DNA of 38,256 bases, from positions 1 to 38,256 of IMG/VR virus record IMGVR_UViG_3300025030_000261. One strand, written 5' to 3'. Origin of the DNA: a virus. Numbering within the stretch: position 1 is the stretch's first letter; each line of letters begins with the position of its first letter. Position numbers and translations under genes: made by a program. Below the pieces are notes generated by a model, which was not told the origin of the DNA, ran no database searches, and saw only the letters and a program-made list of their open reading frames with translations. Shown one piece after another: positions 2,668-13,954 of the stretch.

Positions 2668-3977
2668 AGACCCCTCCCTCTTTCTTGCTGCGACTCCGGT
2701 TTACACCAGCACTTGTCAAGATTTTTGAACCGCGTCAGACGCCCATCAAATTGGACAAACACCTCACCGTTCGCACCATGCCGATTCGCCCGTATCAATA
2801 TCTCAGCCACACCCTTCATCTTAGAATCCTTATTGTAAATCTCGTCCCGATAAATCATCATCACGAGGTCGGCATCTTGCTCGATAGCCCCAGATTCTCG
2901 TAGGTCGCTCATGTGAGGTCGCTTATCCTGTCTTGATTCACATTCCCGATTGACCTGCGCCAGGCATAGAACTGGGCAGTCTAGCTCTTTTGATAGAGCC
3001 TTCAAGCCACGGCTTATACTAGCAACCTCCTGTTCCCTGTTGCTACCATCACCGCGCATCAGTTGCAGGTAATCCACAACAACCATTTGCAGGCCATGCT
3101 TGCGCATTATCTTTCGTGTGCGGGAGCGTAACTTTCCAATAGTTAGGGCGCATTCATCGTCGATGACTATTTTTAACCCCTTTAGCGTCTGCACGGCTAC
3201 AGTAATCGCATCGGTTGAATTTTCGTCGGTCATAATCGAGTCGGTCGGGTACCCGGAGGTAATCGCAATCATCCGGTTGGCTATTTCCCTGCGCGGCATT
3301 TCGAGACTGGCAAAGTAGATTGTTCCTCCAGCTCGCGCAGCAGTTATCGCCATCGTACAAGCGGCGGCTGTCTTACCGGCCTTCGGCCTTGCAGCCAAGA
3401 TGTTTAAGCTGCCACGATGGAACCCACCACCCAACAACTCGTCAAGGTCGGTTAATCCTGTCGGCATCGCAATAGCCGCCCCAGAATACCGCTGCTCGAC
3501 GTGGATAATAGCCTCTTCAAGCGCCTCGGACAACATTACCGGCTCATGCCCATCACGACTTTCCATTAACGCGAAGATGCGCCTTTCAGCCGTTTCTGCA
3601 ATTTCGGCAGCGTCAGTCTTTTTTTCGACCTGATCGGTAATATCTTGGCTGATTCCACCTAATTCTCGCAGCATGGCATGATTGCGAACAGTGGCGGCGT
3701 AGTGCTTCACGTTTGCCGCGCTTGGCACGTTCTGGGCGAGACTGCCGAGATAGGGTAAGCCTCCGATCCGGTCAAGCTCGCCTGATACCTCTAAAGCCTC
3801 AGCAACAGTGATTACATCCACAGGTTTGCCTTTGTTGCACATCCGGCTAATTACCCGGAAAGCGATACGGTGCGACTCGGCAGCAAAGTCGTTTTCTACC
3901 AAATCAATTTCATCGAAACAATCCGGTTGGATAAGCAGCGCGCCCAATACACTTTGTTCCGATCTAGTTGCTGACAT
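2664..3977 (-). CDS. dnaB: DnaB-like replicative helicase
   Basis: A 437-residue protein of the DnaB family, slightly shorter than bacterial DnaB (about 470). The N-terminal domain runs from EQSVLGALL (7-15) to about 140. The RecA-like C-terminal domain starts near MPTGLTDLDELLGGG, with Walker A ARPKAGKTA (196-204), SLEMPRREI (224-232), Walker B VVVDYLQL (299-306), the sensor AQVNRECE (340-347) and the arginine-finger segment LRESGAIEQDAD (359-370). It should unwind the phage replication fork as a hexamer. The DUF1376 gene just upstream overlaps its start by 14 bases and probably supplies the initiator or loader function. Confidence 0.96.
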   Translation of the reverse strand: MSATRSEQSVLGALLIQPDCFDEIDLVENDFAAESHRIAFRVISRMCNKGKPVDVITVAEALEVSGELDRIGGLPYLGSLAQNVPSAANVKHYAATVRNHAMLRELGGISQDITDQVEKKTDAAEIAETAERRIFALMESRDGHEPVMLSEALEEAIIHVEQRYSGAAIAMPTGLTDLDELLGGGFHRGSLNILAARPKAGKTAAACTMAITAARAGGTIYFASLEMPRREIANRMIAITSGYPTDSIMTDENSTDAITVAVQTLKGLKIVIDDECALTIGKLRSRTRKIMRKHGLQMVVVDYLQLMRGDGSNREQEVASISRGLKALSKELDCPVLCLAQVNRECESRQDKRPHMSDLRESGAIEQDADLVMMIYRDEIYNKDSKMKGVAEILIRANRHGANGEVFVQFDGRLTRFKNLDKCWCKPESQQERGRGL

Positions 3978-4737
3978 GGTTATCCTCGACGTAATTTTTG
4001 ATCGCCCTGTACTGGCTAGTTTCCTTCACTGATCCATCAGCCTCGATAAACCACAGCTTGTACCAATTACCTTTGACGCAGTTTCTGAATGTCATCCGCC
4101 AATCCTTTTGACGCTTTCCACTTTCCTTATGCGTCGAAACGAATTGCTGCCAACAAACTCTAACCATATCTAACGGAATTTTGTTTTTTTCAGCAAAGTC
4201 GAAAACTGGATCGCTTTTAGGGATTCGCTCTTCCCCGGATTCCTTGCATAATTCCAAAAAGGTTTGAATGGAGCAAGTTGCCGAACGCTTGCGTTTCGGC
4301 TTATCTAGGTCTTGGGTAATGGGTAATGGGTAATGGGTAGCATCGTTTTTTATGCTTGGAGCATCATTATTTATGCTTGGAGCATCATTCGAGCAATGCG
4401 TTAGCATGGATTTAGCATGTTTTTGCCTTGCCCAACGGACTTCAGCAGCCTCTTTCGCTTTTGATTTTCTACCGCCAGCCTCTTCCATTTCCTTCAAAAC
4501 TCGTCCATGAATCCATCCTTCATCAACATGATTGAAGAATTCTCTTAAAACATCCTCTATTTCCTGTTTGTGCTCGCGCATATTGATTAGCCTTGATATT
4601 GAATGAATATCGTCGGTTATCGGCTCTTCGATTGTATATGCTAGATCAAGCAAACGCCTGTATGCTAAATCTTCCATTAGCGAAAGATGCCTAGTATGGC
4701 TGGCATAATCGCCTATGCTGAATTTGTAGTAGTGCAA
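3964..4737 (-). CDS. DUF1376-family phage replication protein (initiator/loader candidate)
   Basis: A 257-residue protein. Residues 1-90 match the DUF1376 domain: YYKFSIGDYASHTRHLSL, then EDLAYRRLLDLAYTIEEP, and FFNHVDEGWIH. A basic linker (RKSKAKEAAEVRWARQKH) follows, then a repetitive, AT-rich central part (NDAPSI repeated, then HYPLPITQ) and a Trp-rich C-terminal domain (DWRMTFRNCVKGNWYKLW). This layout (N-terminal DNA-binding, repeat-rich middle, C-terminal partner-binding) resembles lambda O-type initiators, and the gene lies directly before the helicase, where O-like genes are found. The initiator role is inferred. ATG 4737 opens the frame. Confidence 0.85.
   Translation of the reverse strand: MHYYKFSIGDYASHTRHLSLMEDLAYRRLLDLAYTIEEPITDDIHSISRLINMREHKQEIEDVLREFFNHVDEGWIHGRVLKEMEEAGGRKSKAKEAAEVRWARQKHAKSMLTHCSNDAPSINNDAPSIKNDATHYPLPITQDLDKPKRKRSATCSIQTFLELCKESGEERIPKSDPVFDFAEKNKIPLDMVRVCWQQFVSTHKESGKRQKDWRMTFRNCVKGNWYKLWFIEADGSVKETSQYRAIKNYVEDNHVSN
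4314..4389. repeat. Tandem repeats inside the replication gene: candidate origin iterons
   Basis: Two adjacent repeat sets. GGGTAAT is repeated three times plus a partial fourth copy (4314-4339). A 21-base unit occurs twice in tandem (4351-4371 and 4372-4389), each holding the perfect inverted repeat ATGCT-TGG-AGCAT. Further AGCAT words follow to about 4420. The unit lengths are in frame with the gene, giving repeated NDAPSI in the protein. Lambda-like phages carry their origin iterons within the initiator gene, so this is a reasonable origin candidate. No experimental-type evidence is visible. Confidence 0.5.
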
Positions 4738-5333: not shown

Positions 5334-5819
5334 AAATCAACTTATCGAATTGATACCGGCAGCCCAGGTGCAGCAAAAGTCGAATAGAGTAAGATCGGCA
5401 AGTCGCGTTAGTCGCAATCGCGGGCAGAGTGAAGTGGCGGAACTACGGTAAGGCCACACTGGTGCGAGAAATAAAGCAAAAAGGAAGTGAACCTGACTGG
5501 GACGCGAAACGTAGTGGTAGCAACAGTCGGCAGCACGAAGGGCATTTGATAAGCACTAGGCCAGGAAGCGACGCACGGTAGGCATTTCGCGGATGCAAGC
5601 CCACAGGCACCCTTGCCCAAGGCGTAAGACTCGCCCTTCGTCCTGCTGATTGAGCAACAAAGAATTGCGCGAAGCACTTGGCAGCCACAACAGTAGAGAA
5701 ATGGGCTAACAGAGAACGCGCAAAGGAAGCCTGCAATCCATACAGGCCGATTGATGCGCTTTCGTCAGCGCGCATCCCAGGCCTTCGGACGGCCGCCAGA
5801 TAACTTTTGTGGAGGCAAT
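5330..5819 (+). promoter_or_regulatory. Long structured leader of the rightward operon, no confident gene
   Basis: About 490 bases between the promoter and the first supported gene, with no credible coding frame on either strand. It is dense in helices: GACTG/CAGTC (5495-5499 with 5524-5528); a 15-base stem with one mismatch (5529-5543 with 5633-5647) closing an 89-base domain; GCCTG/CAGGC (5729-5733 with 5743-5747); GATGCGC/GCGCATC (5753-5759 with 5770-5776); GGCC/GGCC (5780-5783 with 5791-5794). A clean GGAGG follows at 5811. Candidate roles are antitermination RNA (as in the put sites of HK022), a cis regulator, or a free small RNA. Confidence 0.5.
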
Positions 5820-6140
5820 ATGACTCACAACACTTTCAACAATCTGATGGAGCTGCCGGACATTCAGGCGATGCTGGAATCGGCTCAGGCTAAGACGGCC
5901 AAAATAAGCCGTTTGGATGATCTGGTTGATGTGGCGCGCTTCATCGAGGGCGCGAGCCTGCTCGAATGCAAGCACATCATCAATGAGCTGATCGACCGCA
6001 CATCCACTATTACCGGCTGCGCGACTGAACTTGAGAACGCCGCCGGTTCACTGTCCCGCAGTATCGAGATTGACGGCGATGTCGATGTAGACGCGGAAGA
6101 TAGCCTGCGCTCCCACATGGAAGCGAGGGACGAAGCATGA
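5820..6140 (+). CDS. Hypothetical early protein, 106 aa
   Basis: ATG 5820 follows a perfect GGAGG by four bases, so the longer upstream reading is rejected. The 106-residue product is helical and acidic: it opens MTHNTFNNLMELPDIQAML, has a SRLDDLVDVARFIEG segment, an HIINELIDR helix and a Ser/Asp-rich tail (SIEIDGDVDVDAEDS). It has no recognised domain. First gene of the rightward operon, overlapping the next gene by ATGA. Early position suggests host takeover or control functions, but nothing specific can be said. Confidence 0.8.
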   Translation: MTHNTFNNLMELPDIQAMLESAQAKTAKISRLDDLVDVARFIEGASLLECKHIINELIDRTSTITGCATELENAAGSLSRSIEIDGDVDVDAEDSLRSHMEARDEA

Positions 6141-6457
6141 GCCTCGCCCACCAGCACATCGTCAACAAGCTCAACAGGCGTGCCGAAGTCGAGCGCGAGA
6201 ATCAGTGCGTGGATGAACTTGAGCGCCGCGCCACGCCGCTGTTCTACACCGTGATGACAGTCGCAGCCGCCGTGATGCTGTGGACACTCACCGCAGGCTA
6301 CCGCGACGTGATCCAGCACCGCCTGGACACAATGGCCGACCGCCAGCAATACGACCGCATCAGCGCCACGCTGGCCAGTTGCGCGAATGGTTCCGTGGTT
6401 TCGTTCGACGACGGGCTGATGACCTGCCGGATCAAAAAACTGGTGGTGATGAAATGA
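6137..6457 (+). CDS. Single-pass membrane protein, 106 aa, paralogue of 11117-11430
   Basis: The product has a polar N-terminal helix (HQHIVNKLNRRAEVERENQ), one membrane segment (LFYTVMTVAAAVMLWTL, about 35-51) followed by YRDVIQHRLDTM, and a C-terminal part with Cys87 and Cys97 (ASCANG, MTCRIKK). A second, frameshifted copy lies at 11117-11430 and shares the pattern NQHIV-KLN, ATPLFY, YRDV-QHR-DT and CAN-FDD. ATG 6137 overlaps the preceding stop and the TGA overlaps the next ATG. Function unknown; possibly membrane-directed host interference such as superinfection exclusion. Confidence 0.75.
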   Translation: MSLAHQHIVNKLNRRAEVERENQCVDELERRATPLFYTVMTVAAAVMLWTLTAGYRDVIQHRLDTMADRQQYDRISATLASCANGSVVSFDDGLMTCRIKKLVVMK

Positions 6458-7360: not shown

Positions 7361-9027
7361 TCGTCATAAACGAAATTCAGGGAAGCGAAGGCTGGATGCG
7401 GGCCCGCAAAGGCTGCTTCACGGCATCCGAACTGTCAGCCGCCGCCGGTGTATCGAAATACATGATCCGCACCGACCTGCTCAAGCAGAAGGCCACTGGC
7501 ATCACGCCGGACATTGACGGCAACACGCAGGCACTTTTCAACAAAGGCCATGCGGCAGAAGCGGCTGCGCGCTCAATTGCGGAAGAAATCATTGGCGATG
7601 ATTTGTCGCCAGTCACCGGCATGATTGAGGTTGACGGCATGAAGTTGCTGGCCTCATTCGATGGCATCACGTTTGACGGCAATGTTATTTTCGAGCACAA
7701 ATTATACGGAGATGATCTGGCTGCGCAAGTAGGCCGTGGCGTGCTTGAACCTCATTACCAACTGCAAGTAGAGCAGCAGATGCTGGTGTCCGGCGCGAAA
7801 AAATGCCTGTTTATGACTTCTGACGGCACAGAAGCAAACATGAAGTATTGCTGGATAGATGCGCCAAAATCCTTCGATCATATTCCGGCAATCTGGAAAC
7901 AATTGGAAAGAGACCTCGAAAACTACCAGCATATCGAGCATATAGAGAGACCCAAGGCAGAAGTGTGCATCGAACTGCCCGCCCTCTTTGTTCACGCCAG
8001 AGGCGAGATCACCGAACACAACATGGAAGCCTTCGGTGTGGCGCTGACCGCCAAACTCGCCGAAGTGCGCGCCATCGCGCTGGTGACGGATCAGGATTTC
8101 TCCAACGCCAAGGAGGCGGCCAAGAAGTTCCGCGAGACGGCCAAGGCCATCGCCCTGTCAAAGGAAGCGATGCTGGCGCAAACCGAAACCATCGGTGAGG
8201 CCGCGCGCAAGATGGACGCATGGGCGAAAGACCTGAACGGCACCGCCCTGCAACTCGAAAAAGATGTAGAGCGCGAGGATAAGTCCAAGAAGGAAGTAAT
8301 GGTGCTCGAAGGCAGGCAGGCCTACGCCGACCACATCACAGTGCTGGAGGCGGATATCAAGCCGATCCGCATAACGCTGGCTCCACCCAACTTCGCCGAG
8401 GCAATCAAGGGTAAGCGCAACTACGCAAGTATGCACGATGCCATCCAGACTATGCTGGCCGGGGTGAAGATTGAGGCCGATGCGCAAGCCAAGGATATTC
8501 GCGCCAAGTTGACTTGGATAAAGACGGCCTATGTCGGTTACGAATTACTGTTTCACGATCTGCAAAACCTAGTGGGAAAACCAATGGATGATATGCAACT
8601 TGCCGTGACATCCAGAATTGAAGGCCAAAAGCGTGCAGAGGAAGCAAAGCTCGAAGCCCAGCGCGCAGCAATTCAGGCCGAGGAAGAGCGCAAAGCCACC
8701 GCCAAGGCGCAGGCCGAGGCCGAGGCTATCCTTGCCGCAGAACGCGCGAAGCAGGCCGAGGAAGAGGCTAAGACGCGTGCCGAATCGGAAGCAGCAGCCA
8801 TCGAAGAGCGCCGCAAGACCATGCAGATCGCGGAATCGGCGCAAGCGAGCCGCCCACCTGTCGCCAGCAAGGTTACGCGGATCAATCCTGCCGCCAATCC
8901 TGCCGCGCGCCCATCCGATAAAGAGATCGTGGACGCTGTTGCTGCGAAGTTTGGCGTGTCATTCGAAACGGCTTGCGTTTGGATTCTCGAAGCAGCTGAA
9001 GCGATAACAACAAAGGAGGCAGCATGA
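7357..9027 (+). CDS. YqaJ-type recombination exonuclease with long helical C-terminal extension
   Basis: A 556-residue protein. Residues 1-195 are a lambda-exonuclease/YqaJ (PD-(D/E)XK) domain: GSEGWMRARKGCFTASELS (9-27), FNKGHAAEAAARS (61-73), catalytic Asp102 in SFDGIT, the EHK pair Glu113/Lys115 and YQLQVEQQMLVSGA (134-147). Residues 200-460 resemble the DUF1351-type helical segment often found with or fused to phage recombinases (DFSNAKEAAKKFRETAKAI). An Ala/Glu-rich coiled coil (about 425-505) and a short C-terminal domain follow. It resects double-strand ends for the RecT-like partner. ATG 7357 is chosen because it overlaps the RecT-like stop. Confidence 0.88.
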   Translation: MIVINEIQGSEGWMRARKGCFTASELSAAAGVSKYMIRTDLLKQKATGITPDIDGNTQALFNKGHAAEAAARSIAEEIIGDDLSPVTGMIEVDGMKLLASFDGITFDGNVIFEHKLYGDDLAAQVGRGVLEPHYQLQVEQQMLVSGAKKCLFMTSDGTEANMKYCWIDAPKSFDHIPAIWKQLERDLENYQHIEHIERPKAEVCIELPALFVHARGEITEHNMEAFGVALTAKLAEVRAIALVTDQDFSNAKEAAKKFRETAKAIALSKEAMLAQTETIGEAARKMDAWAKDLNGTALQLEKDVEREDKSKKEVMVLEGRQAYADHITVLEADIKPIRITLAPPNFAEAIKGKRNYASMHDAIQTMLAGVKIEADAQAKDIRAKLTWIKTAYVGYELLFHDLQNLVGKPMDDMQLAVTSRIEGQKRAEEAKLEAQRAAIQAEEERKATAKAQAEAEAILAAERAKQAEEEAKTRAESEAAAIEERRKTMQIAESAQASRPPVASKVTRINPAANPAARPSDKEIVDAVAAKFGVSFETACVWILEAAEAITTKEAA

Positions 9028-9656
9028 ATACCAAAAAGGAAGATATGAAATCGTCAATAGGAGAAATCCCAACAATTCTCGGAACCACTATGGACGGCGG
9101 CTTTTATGCCGGCCGCATCCGTATCGGGGATCAAGTGTTTGCGCTGATCGTCGCACCAAAGGCGGATGGAGAGCATGAGGACGCGCCGTGGAACGACACA
9201 TACAGCACCGTAGAAGGAGCGAAGTCCTATTTCGACGGCCTCGCCAACACTGATGCAATGGCCGGTGCTTGTAGTGAGCTTGCCAAATGGGCGCGCGGAT
9301 TGCGCATCGAAGGGCATGATGACTGGTATCTGCCCAGCCAGGATGAGCTGGAGATCATCTACCGCAACCTCAAGCCGACCATAGAAGTGAACTGGTGCTA
9401 CGCACGATCTGGAATCAACCTGTCAGCCGTTGAGCCGACTAGGCCTTACACGCCAGACTTCCCGGTACAAACACTGGCCGAGGCGTTCCAAAAAGGTGGG
9501 GAGCAGGCATTCGATCCAGCCTATTACTGGAGCAGCACTCAGCACGTCTCTACCTCTGACTGTGCCTGGGGTCAGGACTTCGGCGACGGCGGCCAGGGCT
9601 ACAACCACGAGGGCAGCAACTCCAGAGCGCGTGCCGTCCGCAGATTAGCCATTTAG
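9024..9656 (+). CDS. DUF1566-domain (C-type-lectin-like fold) protein
   Basis: A 210-residue protein ATGA-coupled to the exonuclease gene. The DUF1566 hallmarks are DWYLPSQDELEIIYRNL (about 99-115), YYWSSTQ (about 167-173), AWGQDFGDGGQGY and the C-terminal RARAVRRLAI. The fold is related to formylglycine-generating enzyme and C-type lectins, and in some phages it is the variable target of diversity-generating retroelements. No reverse transcriptase or template repeat is present here. Why a putative ligand-binding domain sits inside a recombination operon is unclear. Confidence 0.8.
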   Translation: MNTKKEDMKSSIGEIPTILGTTMDGGFYAGRIRIGDQVFALIVAPKADGEHEDAPWNDTYSTVEGAKSYFDGLANTDAMAGACSELAKWARGLRIEGHDDWYLPSQDELEIIYRNLKPTIEVNWCYARSGINLSAVEPTRPYTPDFPVQTLAEAFQKGGEQAFDPAYYWSSTQHVSTSDCAWGQDFGDGGQGYNHEGSNSRARAVRRLAI

Positions 9657-9683
9657 TCATCTATCAATTTCAGGAGCTATGCC

Positions 9684-10043
9684 ATGAAAGAAACAGCATC
9701 CGCCAAAGCCTCATTCCTTGCTTCCATACTCAAGGCCGGAGAGCACTACGCACGGATTACGCAATGGCGTCTTTCAGAGCAGAAGAGGCGTGCGCGTGCC
9801 CGAATGGCTGGTGGAATTCTATCTAGGGACATCCTTACTAGACTCTATCGGCTCCAACGTGGGAAATGTGCCTGTTGTGGACTTCCGCTTGGGAGTAGAT
9901 ATGAGCTTGACCACATCTCCCCGCTGGCAAAAGGAGGCCAGCATTCCGATAACAACATGCAATTACTCAGGAAGAGGTGCAATCAAGAGAAGTCAGCGAA
10001 ACATCCGGTTGACTTCATGCGGTCAAGAGGGTTTCTGCTATGA
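9684..10043 (+). CDS. HNH endonuclease
   Basis: A 119-residue protein with a basic N-terminal helix (WRLSEQKRRARARMAG), a zinc pair CACCG and the HNH core ELDHISPLAKGG, then NNMQLLRKRCNQEKSAKHP. This is the compact HNH_5/HNH-type nuclease common in phages, either a homing enzyme or a host DNA nuclease. Spacing from the DUF1566 gene is 27 bases, with AGGAG 9 bases before the ATG. The second zinc half appears as a lone Cys (RCNQEK) instead of CxxC, so zinc binding may be incomplete. Confidence 0.85.
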   Translation: MKETASAKASFLASILKAGEHYARITQWRLSEQKRRARARMAGGILSRDILTRLYRLQRGKCACCGLPLGSRYELDHISPLAKGGQHSDNNMQLLRKRCNQEKSAKHPVDFMRSRGFLL

Positions 10044-10108
10044 GCGCCATGCCAAGCATAAATGCGCGCAGGAATTGAACAACGTATTTTTGAAGAAGAG
10101 GAAGAGTG

Positions 10109-10627
10109 ATGTCAGTCAACAAAGTGATTCTGATAGGCCGCCTGGGCAAAGACCCGGAAACGCGCTATTGGAATAAGGTGGCGAAAAGCACACCCACCCA
10201 ATGCTGGGAGTGGCTTGGAGCAAAAAAGCCAGCCGGTTACGGAAACGTGCGGATTGCTGGCGTATATAAAAACGCGCACCGCATCGCATGGGAATTTACC
10301 TATGGCGATATTCCCAAAGGGATGCACGTTTTACATTCTTGCGACAACCCAAGCTGCTGCAATCCGCACCACCTGATGCTCGGAACATCGGTATCAAACA
10401 GAATTGACATGGTGCGCAAGGGACGCGGTAATTATCGCCATGCCAATAGAGCGCGCGGACTGAATAATTCAAATGGCAAACTAAACGATGACCAGGTGGC
10501 GCAGATTCGTGCCGCCTATATTCCCGGAAAAGTGAAGCAATCTGAGCTTGCGGCTCAATATGGAGTTAGCCAGCGCCTTGTAAGTTTAATCGTTCGCGGA
10601 GAGGCAAGAAATCATGGCATCGCTTAA
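10109..10627 (+). CDS. SSB N-terminal remnant fused in frame to an HNH homing endonuclease
   Basis: The first 20 residues, MSVNKVILIGRLGKDPETRY, are the N-terminus of a single-stranded DNA-binding protein. From residue 21 the protein becomes a homing endonuclease: WNKVAKS, CWEWLGAKKPAGYGNV, then HRIAWEFTYGDIPKGMHVLH, CDNPSCCNPHHLMLGT and a C-terminal helix-turn-helix segment (KQSELAAQYGVSQRLVSLI). A complete SSB gene follows and overlaps its end (10614). The fusion point equals the same alignment position in the intact SSB (ETRY). ATG 10109 has GAGG upstream. Insertion of a mobile endonuclease into ssb followed by repair or replacement of the gene is the simplest reading. Confidence 0.85.
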   Translation: MSVNKVILIGRLGKDPETRYWNKVAKSTPTQCWEWLGAKKPAGYGNVRIAGVYKNAHRIAWEFTYGDIPKGMHVLHSCDNPSCCNPHHLMLGTSVSNRIDMVRKGRGNYRHANRARGLNNSNGKLNDDQVAQIRAAYIPGKVKQSELAAQYGVSQRLVSLIVRGEARNHGIA

Positions 10628-11105
10628 TCAGTGTAATTTCATCGGTAATGTTGGCAAGATCGAAACCAGGTATATGACCAGCGGAGAGGCGGTAACCAAT
10701 ATCTCACTGGCCTGCAATGAAACATGGAAGGATAAGTCCGGTGAGAAACAAGAGCGCTGCGAGTGGGTGAGCTGCGTCATGTACCGCAGGCTGGCTGAGA
10801 TTGCCGCCGAATATGTGAAGGTTGGACAGCAGCTTTTTATTTCAGGAAAGATGGCAACCCGCAAATGGCAGACCAAGGAAGGCCAGGATCGCTACACCAC
10901 CGAGATCGTGGTCAACGAAATGACCATGCTGGGCGGAAAGTCTCAGGGTGGCGAGCATTCTGCACCGGCAGAGCGCGATTCAAATCCAGCGGGAAGGCCG
11001 GGCGGTTCGCCATCTAAACCTGCGCCAGATAGTCAATCAAACACAGTGGCATCGACAACAAAGACTGGTGCATTCGACAACTTTGATGATGATATTCCTT
11101 TTTGA
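10614..11105 (+). CDS. ssb: Single-stranded DNA-binding protein
   Basis: A 163-residue SSB. The OB-fold runs from MASLNQCNFIGNVGKIETRY through GEAVTNISLACNE, W residues at CEWVSCVMYRRLAEI, YVKVGQQLFISGKMATRKWQ to EMTMLGGK (about 107). A disordered Ser/Pro linker ends in the acidic tip DDDIPF, the part that recruits partner proteins in bacterial SSBs. It protects single strands and should cooperate with the RecT-like protein and exonuclease of the same operon. ATG 10614 lies inside the end of the endonuclease gene; AGAGG just upstream serves as its ribosome-binding site. Confidence 0.95.
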   Translation: MASLNQCNFIGNVGKIETRYMTSGEAVTNISLACNETWKDKSGEKQERCEWVSCVMYRRLAEIAAEYVKVGQQLFISGKMATRKWQTKEGQDRYTTEIVVNEMTMLGGKSQGGEHSAPAERDSNPAGRPGGSPSKPAPDSQSNTVASTTKTGAFDNFDDDIPF

Positions 11106-11116
11106 TGGAGCCAACC

Positions 11117-11430
11117 ATGACACTCACCAACCAGCACATCGTCCGCAAGCTCAATCTGCGCGCTCAATCTGCTCGCGAGAATCAGCACATTGATGAGATC
11201 GAGCGCCACGCCACGCCGCTGTTTTACGCTGTATTTGGTGCTGCGATGGCCGTCATCCTGTGGTATGATTATCGGGACGTGATGCAACACCGCATGGACA
11301 CGCTGGGAGTGATGCAATCAGCTGCACAGGAAGCGCATTGCTTGCAAGATGTGCGAACGAGGAGATCGTGCCGTTTGACGATGTGATGCTCAAGTGCAAG
11401 AGGATTAAATTGATCGAGGGGATGAAATGA
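11117..11430 (+). pseudogene. Frameshifted paralogue of the 6137-6457 membrane protein
   Basis: ATG 11117 follows GGAGCC. The product starts MTLTNQHIVRKLNLRAQSA and has the same membrane segment (ATPLFYAVFGAAMAVILW) and YRDVMQHRMDT as the copy at 6137. In this frame it meets TGA at 11384. The expected C-terminus (LLARCANEEIVPFDDVMLKC, then KRIKLIEGMK) continues in the -1 frame from about 11330 to TGA 11428-11430, where it is ATGA-coupled to the next gene, as in the first copy. No slippery heptamer is visible near the switch. A single-base mutation or an assembly error is more likely than programmed frameshifting. Confidence 0.7.
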
Positions 11431-13246: not shown

Positions 13247-13365
13247 GGCCGCCCCACGAAAACACTAAACACCGCCACGATCGCGGCAACGATGCATATA
13301 AAGGCTATGGCGAGTGATCCCCAGCCTAATTCATCATCCAGTTCGTATTCGTTCTCGTCGTTCAT
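13243..13365 (-). CDS. Small single-pass membrane peptide, 40 aa (lysis cassette)
   Basis: From ATG 13365 to TGA 13243, overlapping the stop of the homing endonuclease upstream and the holin start downstream (both ATGA). An acidic N-terminus (MNDEYELDDELGW-type, residues 1-15) precedes one strongly hydrophobic segment, SLAIAFICIVAAIVAVFSVF, and a short basic end. Size, topology and place before the holin suggest a holin partner or antiholin, though no family match can be shown. Confidence 0.65.
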   Translation of the reverse strand: MNDENEYELDDELGWGSLAIAFICIVAAIVAVFSVFVGRP

Positions 13366-13910
13366 ATTTTAATCCTATCGGGAATTGATTTCTGTCCTTC
13401 GAGCGATAGATGCGCCCAGCATTTCCGTGAAACAATATTATAAAATTGAGATTTTCCTATCCCCATATTTTTGGCAACTTTTATCATATCCTTCACCATA
13501 CCCTCTTTTTGGCCATATATTTCTCTAAGATGCAAAACGTCCTTCTCGGTAATTTTATGGAACCTACTATCCTCTCCATGCAAAACAAAATTACGCTTCT
13601 TTTTTGCCATATCTCTACAGTTGTCTCGTTGTGTCCCAATAAATAAATGCTCTGGGTTTACACAGATAGGATGGTCGCATTTGTGACACACGATTTTTCC
13701 TTCTGGGATTTCACCTACAAACAACTCCCATGCGGCTCTATGCGCCAATATATTTCCTCTTGATTTTGAAATCATAAAGCATCCATATCTATGCTGCACG
13801 CCTTTATCAGTACCAAATTTTCCACCAATCCAATTCCAACAACCGTCTGTTTTTTCTACTTTAGCAAGAAATCTATCAATAGCCGGAATACAATCGCCTT
13901 TTTTTGGCAT
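13362..13910 (-). CDS. HNH homing endonuclease in the lysis cassette
   Basis: A 182-residue protein of the HNH_3 kind: FLAKVEKTDGCWNWIGG, RYGCFMISKSRGNILAHRAAW, ELFVGEIPEGKIVCHKCDHP, CVNPEHLFIGTQRDN and a C-terminal helix-turn-helix (ITEKDVLHLREIYG; IGKSQFYNIVSRKCW). It shares architecture with the endonuclease fused to the ssb remnant at 10109. AT-rich compared with its neighbours. ATG 13910 has AGGAG at the right distance, so the upstream in-frame ATG 13940 is not chosen. It separates the endolysin from the holin genes, and its end is knitted by ATGA to the small membrane peptide. Confidence 0.88.
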   Translation of the reverse strand: MPKKGDCIPAIDRFLAKVEKTDGCWNWIGGKFGTDKGVQHRYGCFMISKSRGNILAHRAAWELFVGEIPEGKIVCHKCDHPICVNPEHLFIGTQRDNCRDMAKKKRNFVLHGEDSRFHKITEKDVLHLREIYGQKEGMVKDMIKVAKNMGIGKSQFYNIVSRKCWAHLSLEGQKSIPDRIKI

Positions 13911-13954
13911 TTCATCACTCCTAATATAAAGAGTGTCCATTGTACCACATTATC

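Follow-up and report, generated by a model that had tools for sequence, protein, structure and literature searches.

Free-standing homing endonucleases are common in phages, and to our knowledge the genes that they target are rarely known. Phage T4 carries its SegG gene between genes 32 and 59; the target of SegG is gene 32, the T4 SSB gene (PMC2988022). Free-standing T4 nucleases borrow promoters, overlap their neighbours and co-convert flanking DNA (PMC2988022), and nuclease genes have also been reported at the boundaries of genetic exchange between phages (PMC10448857). This article describes an ssb locus in a window of 38,256 nucleotides, i.e., the whole stretch of viral DNA that was analysed, in which a nuclease gene begins with the first codons of an ssb gene and is followed by a complete ssb.

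Like SegG and gene 32, the window combines a free-standing nuclease gene beside its putative SSB target gene with co-conversion of the flank (PMC2988022). SegG however is a GIY-YIG enzyme, whereas the window nuclease belongs to the HNH type; the promoters of gene 32 lie inside segG, while here it is the ssb ribosome-binding site that lies inside the nuclease gene; a fused gene-32 relic is not described for SegG in PMC2988022; and the window ssb is of the bacterial OB-fold type. T4/Aeh1 MobE and other Mob HNH enzymes are likewise free-standing, located beside or embedded in essential phage genes, and like the window nuclease they use host-gene expression signals and overlap their neighbours (PMC2988022). 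The target of MobE is an nrd gene, and PMC2988022 does not describe the enzyme as beginning with its target gene's start. Odn of phage ICP1 is a further phage nuclease of chimeric origin and is described as giving sequence-specific immunity (PMC8263062); the borrowed part in the window is a 20-residue leftover that is predicted to be disordered. The locus differs from these known relatives in its enzyme family, in the package made of a nuclease and the 5′ half of its target, in the ribosome-binding site carried within the nuclease gene, and in the captured start. In the literature searched, with most subscription papers outside its coverage, we met no report of a homing nuclease that is a fusion with its target gene's start.

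Organization of the ssb locus

The window, which consists of one metagenomic contig, is a 38-kb virus record with HK97-type portal, capsid and terminase genes. It contains one ssb. Genes for RecT and a YqaJ exonuclease lie upstream of the ssb locus, whose features are as follows.

9684 to 10043, + strand: HNH1, a separate HNH gene just 5′ of the island (Pfam HNH, 1e-9; PHROGs endonuclease VII/HNH).
10071 to 10167, + strand: 97-bp recipient island, made of the 12 last codons of the small pre-ssb gene of contigs L005/L006, the ssb start and codons 1-20.
10097 to 10104, + strand: Shine-Dalgarno-like AGAGGAAG of the recipient ssb, now preceding the fused nuclease; L005 and L006 are identical here.
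10109 to 10168, + strand: relic, ssb codons 1-20, MSVNKVILIGRLGKDPETRY, the N-terminus of the fusion.
10109 to 10627, + strand: fused relic-HNH_3 ORF of 172 aa, MSVNKVILIGRLGKDPETRY and then in frame WNKVAKSTPTQCWEW...
10168 to 10627, + strand: body of the HNH_3 homing endonuclease, WNKV..., without its native start; the joint is between R-Y and W.
10274 to 10396, + strand: HNH_3 domain, residues 56-96 (Pfam PF13392, 3.3e-15).
10598 to 10604, + strand: ssb Shine-Dalgarno GGAGAGG, read from the sequence within the terminal nuclease codons.
10614 to 11105, + strand: complete ssb, 163 aa, chimeric (Pfam SSB, 1.4e-31), with a 14-bp overlap with the nuclease gene.
10614 to 10852, + strand: donor-type ssb 5′ half, codons 1-79, MASLNQCNFIGNVGKIETRY..., 72% aa identity to the L061 SSB, 35/52 informative sites donor-like.
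10853 to 11105, + strand: recipient-type ssb 3′ half, identity to L007/L005, 0/32 informative sites donor-like.

HNH1 is unrelated to the fused nuclease and ends about 27 bp before the 97-bp island, which is thus bracketed by two nuclease genes. Similarity to L005 is absent between HNH1 and the island, and HNH1 probably belongs to a reshuffled left side of the locus; the remainder of L005's small pre-ssb gene is absent from the window. A third HNH gene, of the HNH_3 family, lies at 13362-13940 (- strand) and is about 41% identical to residues 21-134 of the fused nuclease. Two small paralogous genes (6137-6457 and 11117-11386, + strand; 76% identical over 115 bp), each with a hydrophobic stretch, flank the recT-exo-HNH-ssb block, one on each side. 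An Lcl_C-type protein ending in RARAVRRL is encoded at 9024-9656 (+ strand), and related phages carry reverse-transcriptase-like ORFs near ssb and an FGE-like protein (L005 1159-2433; L006 8-328 and 1229-2503; L192 1147-1521), which is suggestive of diversity-generating retroelements.

Origin of the first 20 codons

An initial annotation, made from the sequence of the window, held that the nuclease gene opens with 20 SSB residues and then switches in frame to an HNH_3 enzyme. Profile searches bear this out: in the fused ORF, Pfam matches residues 3-22 to SSB (9e-4), while PHROGs assigns residues 12-169 to HNH endonucleases and residues 1-21 to phrog_44 SSB. The relic covers positions 1-20 only of the SSB profile (PF00436) and is not itself an SSB. 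Its source is found in L005 (IMG/VR contig 3300009031_000110), where positions 3966-4062, the 5′ end of an uninterrupted ssb, are 100% identical over 97 bp to window positions 10071-10167; identity to L006 in this region is 94% over 115 bp. Outside the island both flanks are unrelated to L005/L006, and an exact-pattern scan met the island sequence in the L005/L006 contigs only. The 97-bp identity therefore makes the relic a genuine remnant of an L005-type ssb with its own Shine-Dalgarno and ATG, not a chance resemblance. The mobile nuclease does appear to use a captured ssb start codon and ribosome site, as had been proposed, both being identical to those of the L005 ssb.

Uninterrupted ssb genes occur in three IMG/VR phage contigs, whose proteins are 75-76% (L005, L007) and 68% (L006) identical to the window SSB. 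Each of the three carries one full ssb, contrary to the idea that relatives might have two in tandem, and an HNH is found neither inside these genes nor overlapping their starts, which makes the nuclease a presence/absence trait among relatives. The 60 nt of the relic are also 97% identical to the chromosomal ssb of some Gallionellaceae; the recipient-type ssb thus resembles a host-lineage gene, and the host is presumably a member of this family.

The in-frame fusion is found only in the window: no second case was returned by a peptide scan of IMG/VR, nor by protein or DNA searches of 158 Gallionellaceae genomes, in which residues 1-23 match intact chromosomal ssb and the HNH part matches unrelated loci, the two never occurring side by side. 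Two short frames with an ssb N-terminus, in G092 and G035, were rejected as fused cases: one is the end of a contig, the other a decayed piece of a chromosomal ssb that has no HNH beside it. A decayed chromosomal ssb 5′ fragment with no nuclease is seen in a Gallionellaceae genome at L190 (1929-2063, - strand).

A chimeric ssb downstream of the nuclease

The complete ssb covers positions 2-104 of the SSB profile (PF00436) and has an acidic tip, DDDIPF, at its C-terminal end. As first described, it starts inside the last nuclease codons, the gene at 10614-11105 overlapping the nuclease end by 14 bases. Its nucleotide identity to the ssb genes of L005/L006/L007 is about 60-70% up to about 10850 and 90-97% thereafter; within 10877-11015, it is identical to L007 at 134/139 nt and about 90% identical to L005. 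The MASLNQCNFIGNVGKIETRY type of N-terminus is seen in L061, a phage-like locus with exo and recombination genes and no nuclease, whose SSB shares GNVxKIETRY with that of the window.

The change of ancestry was located with a breakpoint test on 84 unambiguous informative sites, where donor-like means L061-like. The donor-like sites fall before 10850 (35/52), with none from 10853 on (0/32); the maximum chi-square is 36.9, a value reached in 0 of 10,000 permutations (p<1e-4), and the right breakpoint lies at about 10851-10857. The foreign tract accordingly extends from 10168 to about 10852 and comprises the nuclease and the first ~79 ssb codons. The locus is a three-part mosaic consisting of a recipient island, a foreign tract and a recipient-type ssb 3′ part, and the chimeric nature of the second ssb implies that its 5′ half came in with the nuclease. 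Two earlier statements have to be amended in consequence. The ssb was said to be diverged over the same first 20 residues: the divergence is real, yet it extends over about 79 codons, with recipient-like sequence after them. It was also said that an intact copy restores function: a full-length ssb does follow, only it is a chimera with its own internal breakpoint and not an intact copy that was spared.

Loss of the DP in KIETRY, common to L214, L061 and the window, was considered as a mark of resistance and rejected: the L225 ssb, which accompanies a related nuclease, encodes DPETRY, and loss of the motif is thus not a general basis of self-resistance.

The nuclease body and its native start

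The HNH_3 match (PF13392) scores 55.9 bits against a curated cut-off of 24.8, and the conserved positions C32, W35, H57-R58, H76-C78, C83, H88, N97 and R106 are all present. The closest ortholog, L225, is 63% identical and begins with its native start, MAMTSDERFWRKV (MAMTSDERFWRKVEKK). Identities to L225 at the three codon positions are 0.71/0.74/0.41, a pattern which indicates that the HNH frame is under purifying selection. The nuclease is free-standing: it has its own ORF with a stop, the complete ssb is downstream, and it lies outside any Rfam intron.

Were the first 20 codons simply a normal part of this endonuclease family? The relatives argue otherwise, since they have their own short, unrelated leaders ending in (R/A/F)-F-W-x-K-V. 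In the window this native N-terminus is missing, replaced by ssb codons 1-20, and the body is still that of a clade member. The left joint falls on the shared R-[Y/F]-W codons, with a microhomology of a few bases. Phage matches that align into residues 1-20 (HVTV-1, Vibrio 1.232, VSN-002) were set aside, as they have no SSB sequence there. The unaltered donor, with this nuclease in its native-start form and this ssb 5′ half, was not found, L225 being the nearest at only 63% identity.

In an AlphaFold2 model, residues 1-12 have pLDDT <50 and the HNH core about 90 or more. The best structural match of this model in the PDB, a weak one (1u3e, E 0.03, probability 0.90), is I-HmuI of Bacillus phage SPO1, which unlike the window nuclease is intron-encoded; a PDB sequence profile search with the nuclease gave no match.

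A clade of HNH nucleases dedicated to ssb

When 153 distinct HNH ORFs were ranked by similarity to the window nuclease, the first seven (L225, L299, L302, BUCT566, L298, L300 and L301; 47-63%) all proved to lie directly upstream of ssb, against none of those ranked 8-86. These members came from separate searches: L225 was first met in an ssb-based scan, BUCT566 in a DNA search with the window, and L298-L302 in a scan that used the nuclease only. In that nuclease-only scan the best six matches are all ssb-adjacent, compared with 7/80 ssb-adjacent overall. All eight clade members (the window, L225, L298-L302 and BUCT566) carry a GGAGG-like ssb ribosome-binding site in the last nuclease codons, and in all eight the stop codon of the nuclease gene abuts the start of ssb or overlaps it. 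Such a layout would let the nuclease enter without cutting ssb off from translation; by the same reasoning, the nuclease could not be cleanly deleted without losing that site. In L057 (Xanthomonas phage SAC), an unannotated, frame-broken HNH at 2396-2926 stands before ssb and overlaps the annotated ssb 5′ end; the annotated ssb start there looks placed too far upstream.

The Pseudomonas phage isolate BUCT566 has its nuclease (same clade, 51% aa identity to that of the window) between exo and ssb, directly before the latter; R656, phi1 and Tr60_Ab31 are without the nuclease. BUCT566 and R656 are 99% identical up to the final exo codons, after which comes the BUCT566 nuclease. In ssb, nt 1-135 are only 67% identical between the two phages, and from 3432 on identity is 98% (132/135 nt). 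Nuclease and ssb 5′ end were thus exchanged together in a near-identical backbone, as in the window. Unlike the window nuclease, the enzyme of BUCT566 keeps its native start; its left joint is in the end of exo, and no ssb relic was therefore left.

Relics at other loci

Two contigs from different samples, L214/L216, identical at 5410/5411 bases, carry about 35 codons of a recipient-type ssb (MASVNKAILIGLLGKDPETRYMSNG...). A different HNH, which has a start of its own, comes next and is followed by a complete donor-type ssb (MASLNLCQFIGNVGKIESRY). In a generic relic test, the 400 bases before each HNH were compared with the first 35 residues encoded by the gene that follows it. Scores of 55 or more were obtained at 4/133 loci (L396, L447, L214 and L369) and at 0/1318 shuffled pairs. 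L396 (2820-3480) holds a UDG-family relic of 28 aa, which shares about 80% identity with the intact gene, an HNH and then the UDG gene, the same architecture as that of the ssb relic loci. L411, a weaker third ssb case, scores 52. The window itself scores 38, below these matches, its relic being short and diverged. A mirror-image 3′ case is seen in L322 (2600-3560), where the last 35 residues of the gene before the HNH recur, diverged, just behind it. The succession of relic, nuclease and replacement is thus a repeated outcome.

Proposed mechanism and alternatives

The reading that best accounts for the locus, to which we give a probability of about 0.8, is homing by a free-standing, ssb-dedicated HNH nuclease. 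The ssb 5′ half would have been co-converted in the event, and the fused relic would result from an illegitimate joint on the left. In the donor phage, the nuclease gene would lie directly before a donor-type ssb; its terminal codons would hold the ssb ribosome-binding site and its stop codon would overlap the start of ssb. During a mixed infection the enzyme would nick or cut a recipient ssb of L005/L007 type within about codons 20-80, most likely in the region replaced in both the window and BUCT566 (about codons 20-45), and the cleavage site may be near Tyr20. Repair would then copy the nuclease and the first ~79 donor ssb codons into the break. The right joint would form by homology in the conserved ssb stretch ATRKWQxKEGQDRYTTE. 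The left one would be illegitimate, through microhomology at the R-[Y/F]-W codons, and for this reason recipient codons 1-20 would have stayed in place, in frame, to serve as the start of a nuclease that had lost its own. The product would be a nuclease translated from the recipient ssb start, then a complete, chimeric ssb whose 5′ end is unlike that of the recipient. The sequences themselves show the fusion and its mosaic of three parts, the two joints, the clade's tie to ssb, the position of the ssb ribosome-binding site within the nuclease gene and the linked exchange among isolates. That the enzyme targets and cuts ssb, where it would cut, and that the cut would drive the exchange, is what we infer from linkage and mosaicism.

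The main rival is recombination of the RecT type without a cut, in which ordinary illegitimate or relaxed recombination would have linked a piece of ssb to an HNH-ssb module, with the nuclease as a passenger and not as the cause. We consider this unlikely. Phage genomes are mosaic, this phage encodes RecT and a YqaJ exonuclease, relaxed recombination alone can make mosaics, and the left joint shows microhomology only. Such recombination would explain the mosaic, but random mosaicism does not predict the clade's fixed association with ssb, where it is confined to the 5′ side; that BUCT566 exchanged its nuclease and the 5′ end of ssb as one piece, and that a relic recurs at another ssb with a different HNH in L214/L216, also speak against this rival.

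An assembly chimera, joining two phage genomes of the sample at the ssb 5′ end, is very improbable. A single metagenomic contig with a 97-bp exact repeat shared with another phage does invite the suspicion; the few bases shared at 10167/10168 would however not suffice for an overlap-based misjoin, the reading frame continues across the joint, the breakpoint on the right sits inside a homologous stretch, as recombination would place one, and the same architecture is present at the other ssb of L214/L216, in two contigs from different samples.

Equally hard to credit is recruitment of the SSB N-terminus for a new nuclease function, such as binding SSB or replication intermediates. It is exactly the SSB start that was kept in frame, and chimeric phage nucleases which borrow parts of other proteins do exist, ICP1 Odn being one (PMC8263062). 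Against this, 20 residues make no domain, AlphaFold2 predicts residues 1-12 to be disordered, and searches of IMG/VR (peptide scan) and the 158 Gallionellaceae genomes met no second fused case. Partner binding by SSB is served by its acidic C-terminal tail, which is not in the relic. The initial suggestion that the relic competes with SSB or targets the nuclease finds no support here, the relic being a small OB-fold fragment whose residues 1-12, predicted to be disordered, lie beside the HNH core.

Least credible of all is a self-splicing intron carrying the HNH, with the relic as exon 1 and splicing from its codon 20 into the ssb that follows. Introns often encode HNH_3 nucleases, and the relic stops where the recipient ssb goes on with Met21. 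Rfam group I/II matches are nevertheless absent, even at a lax threshold, from 9600-11400 and from L214, L225 and BUCT566; the second ssb is equipped with a ribosome-binding site and a start codon of its own and with a full donor-type N-terminus; and recipient codons 21-79 are replaced, not merely interrupted.

Biological significance

On the homing reading, both joints of a single invasion are preserved in the sequence, which would also name the target (ssb), the allele of the recipient and the unit that moved. The sequence further defines a clade of HNH nucleases dedicated to ssb, including that of an isolated Pseudomonas phage with nuclease-less relatives, in which homing is directly testable. 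The locus illustrates a route by which half of an essential phage gene may be replaced in one step, and the way a nuclease can take over the start of a host gene and in turn provide that gene with another ribosome-binding site. The search for relics offers a simple screen for the targets of other nucleases.

A broader and more tentative proposal, to which we lend slightly less than even odds, is that the package in which some free-standing HNH nucleases spread has two parts, the nuclease and a foreign 5′ portion of the essential gene that it attacks. Were this true, one event would both destroy the old allele and supply a whole, possibly cut-resistant replacement, and the new ribosome-binding site inside the nuclease gene would make the nuclease hard to delete. 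The fused start would then be an occasional by-product, placing the nuclease under the translation signals of its target gene. Scars made of relic, HNH and replacement would be a general signature, from which the targets of uncharacterised nucleases could be read in sequence; the candidates would be ssb (the window, L214/L216 and perhaps L411), the UDG family (L396), L447, L369 and the mirror-image case of L322.
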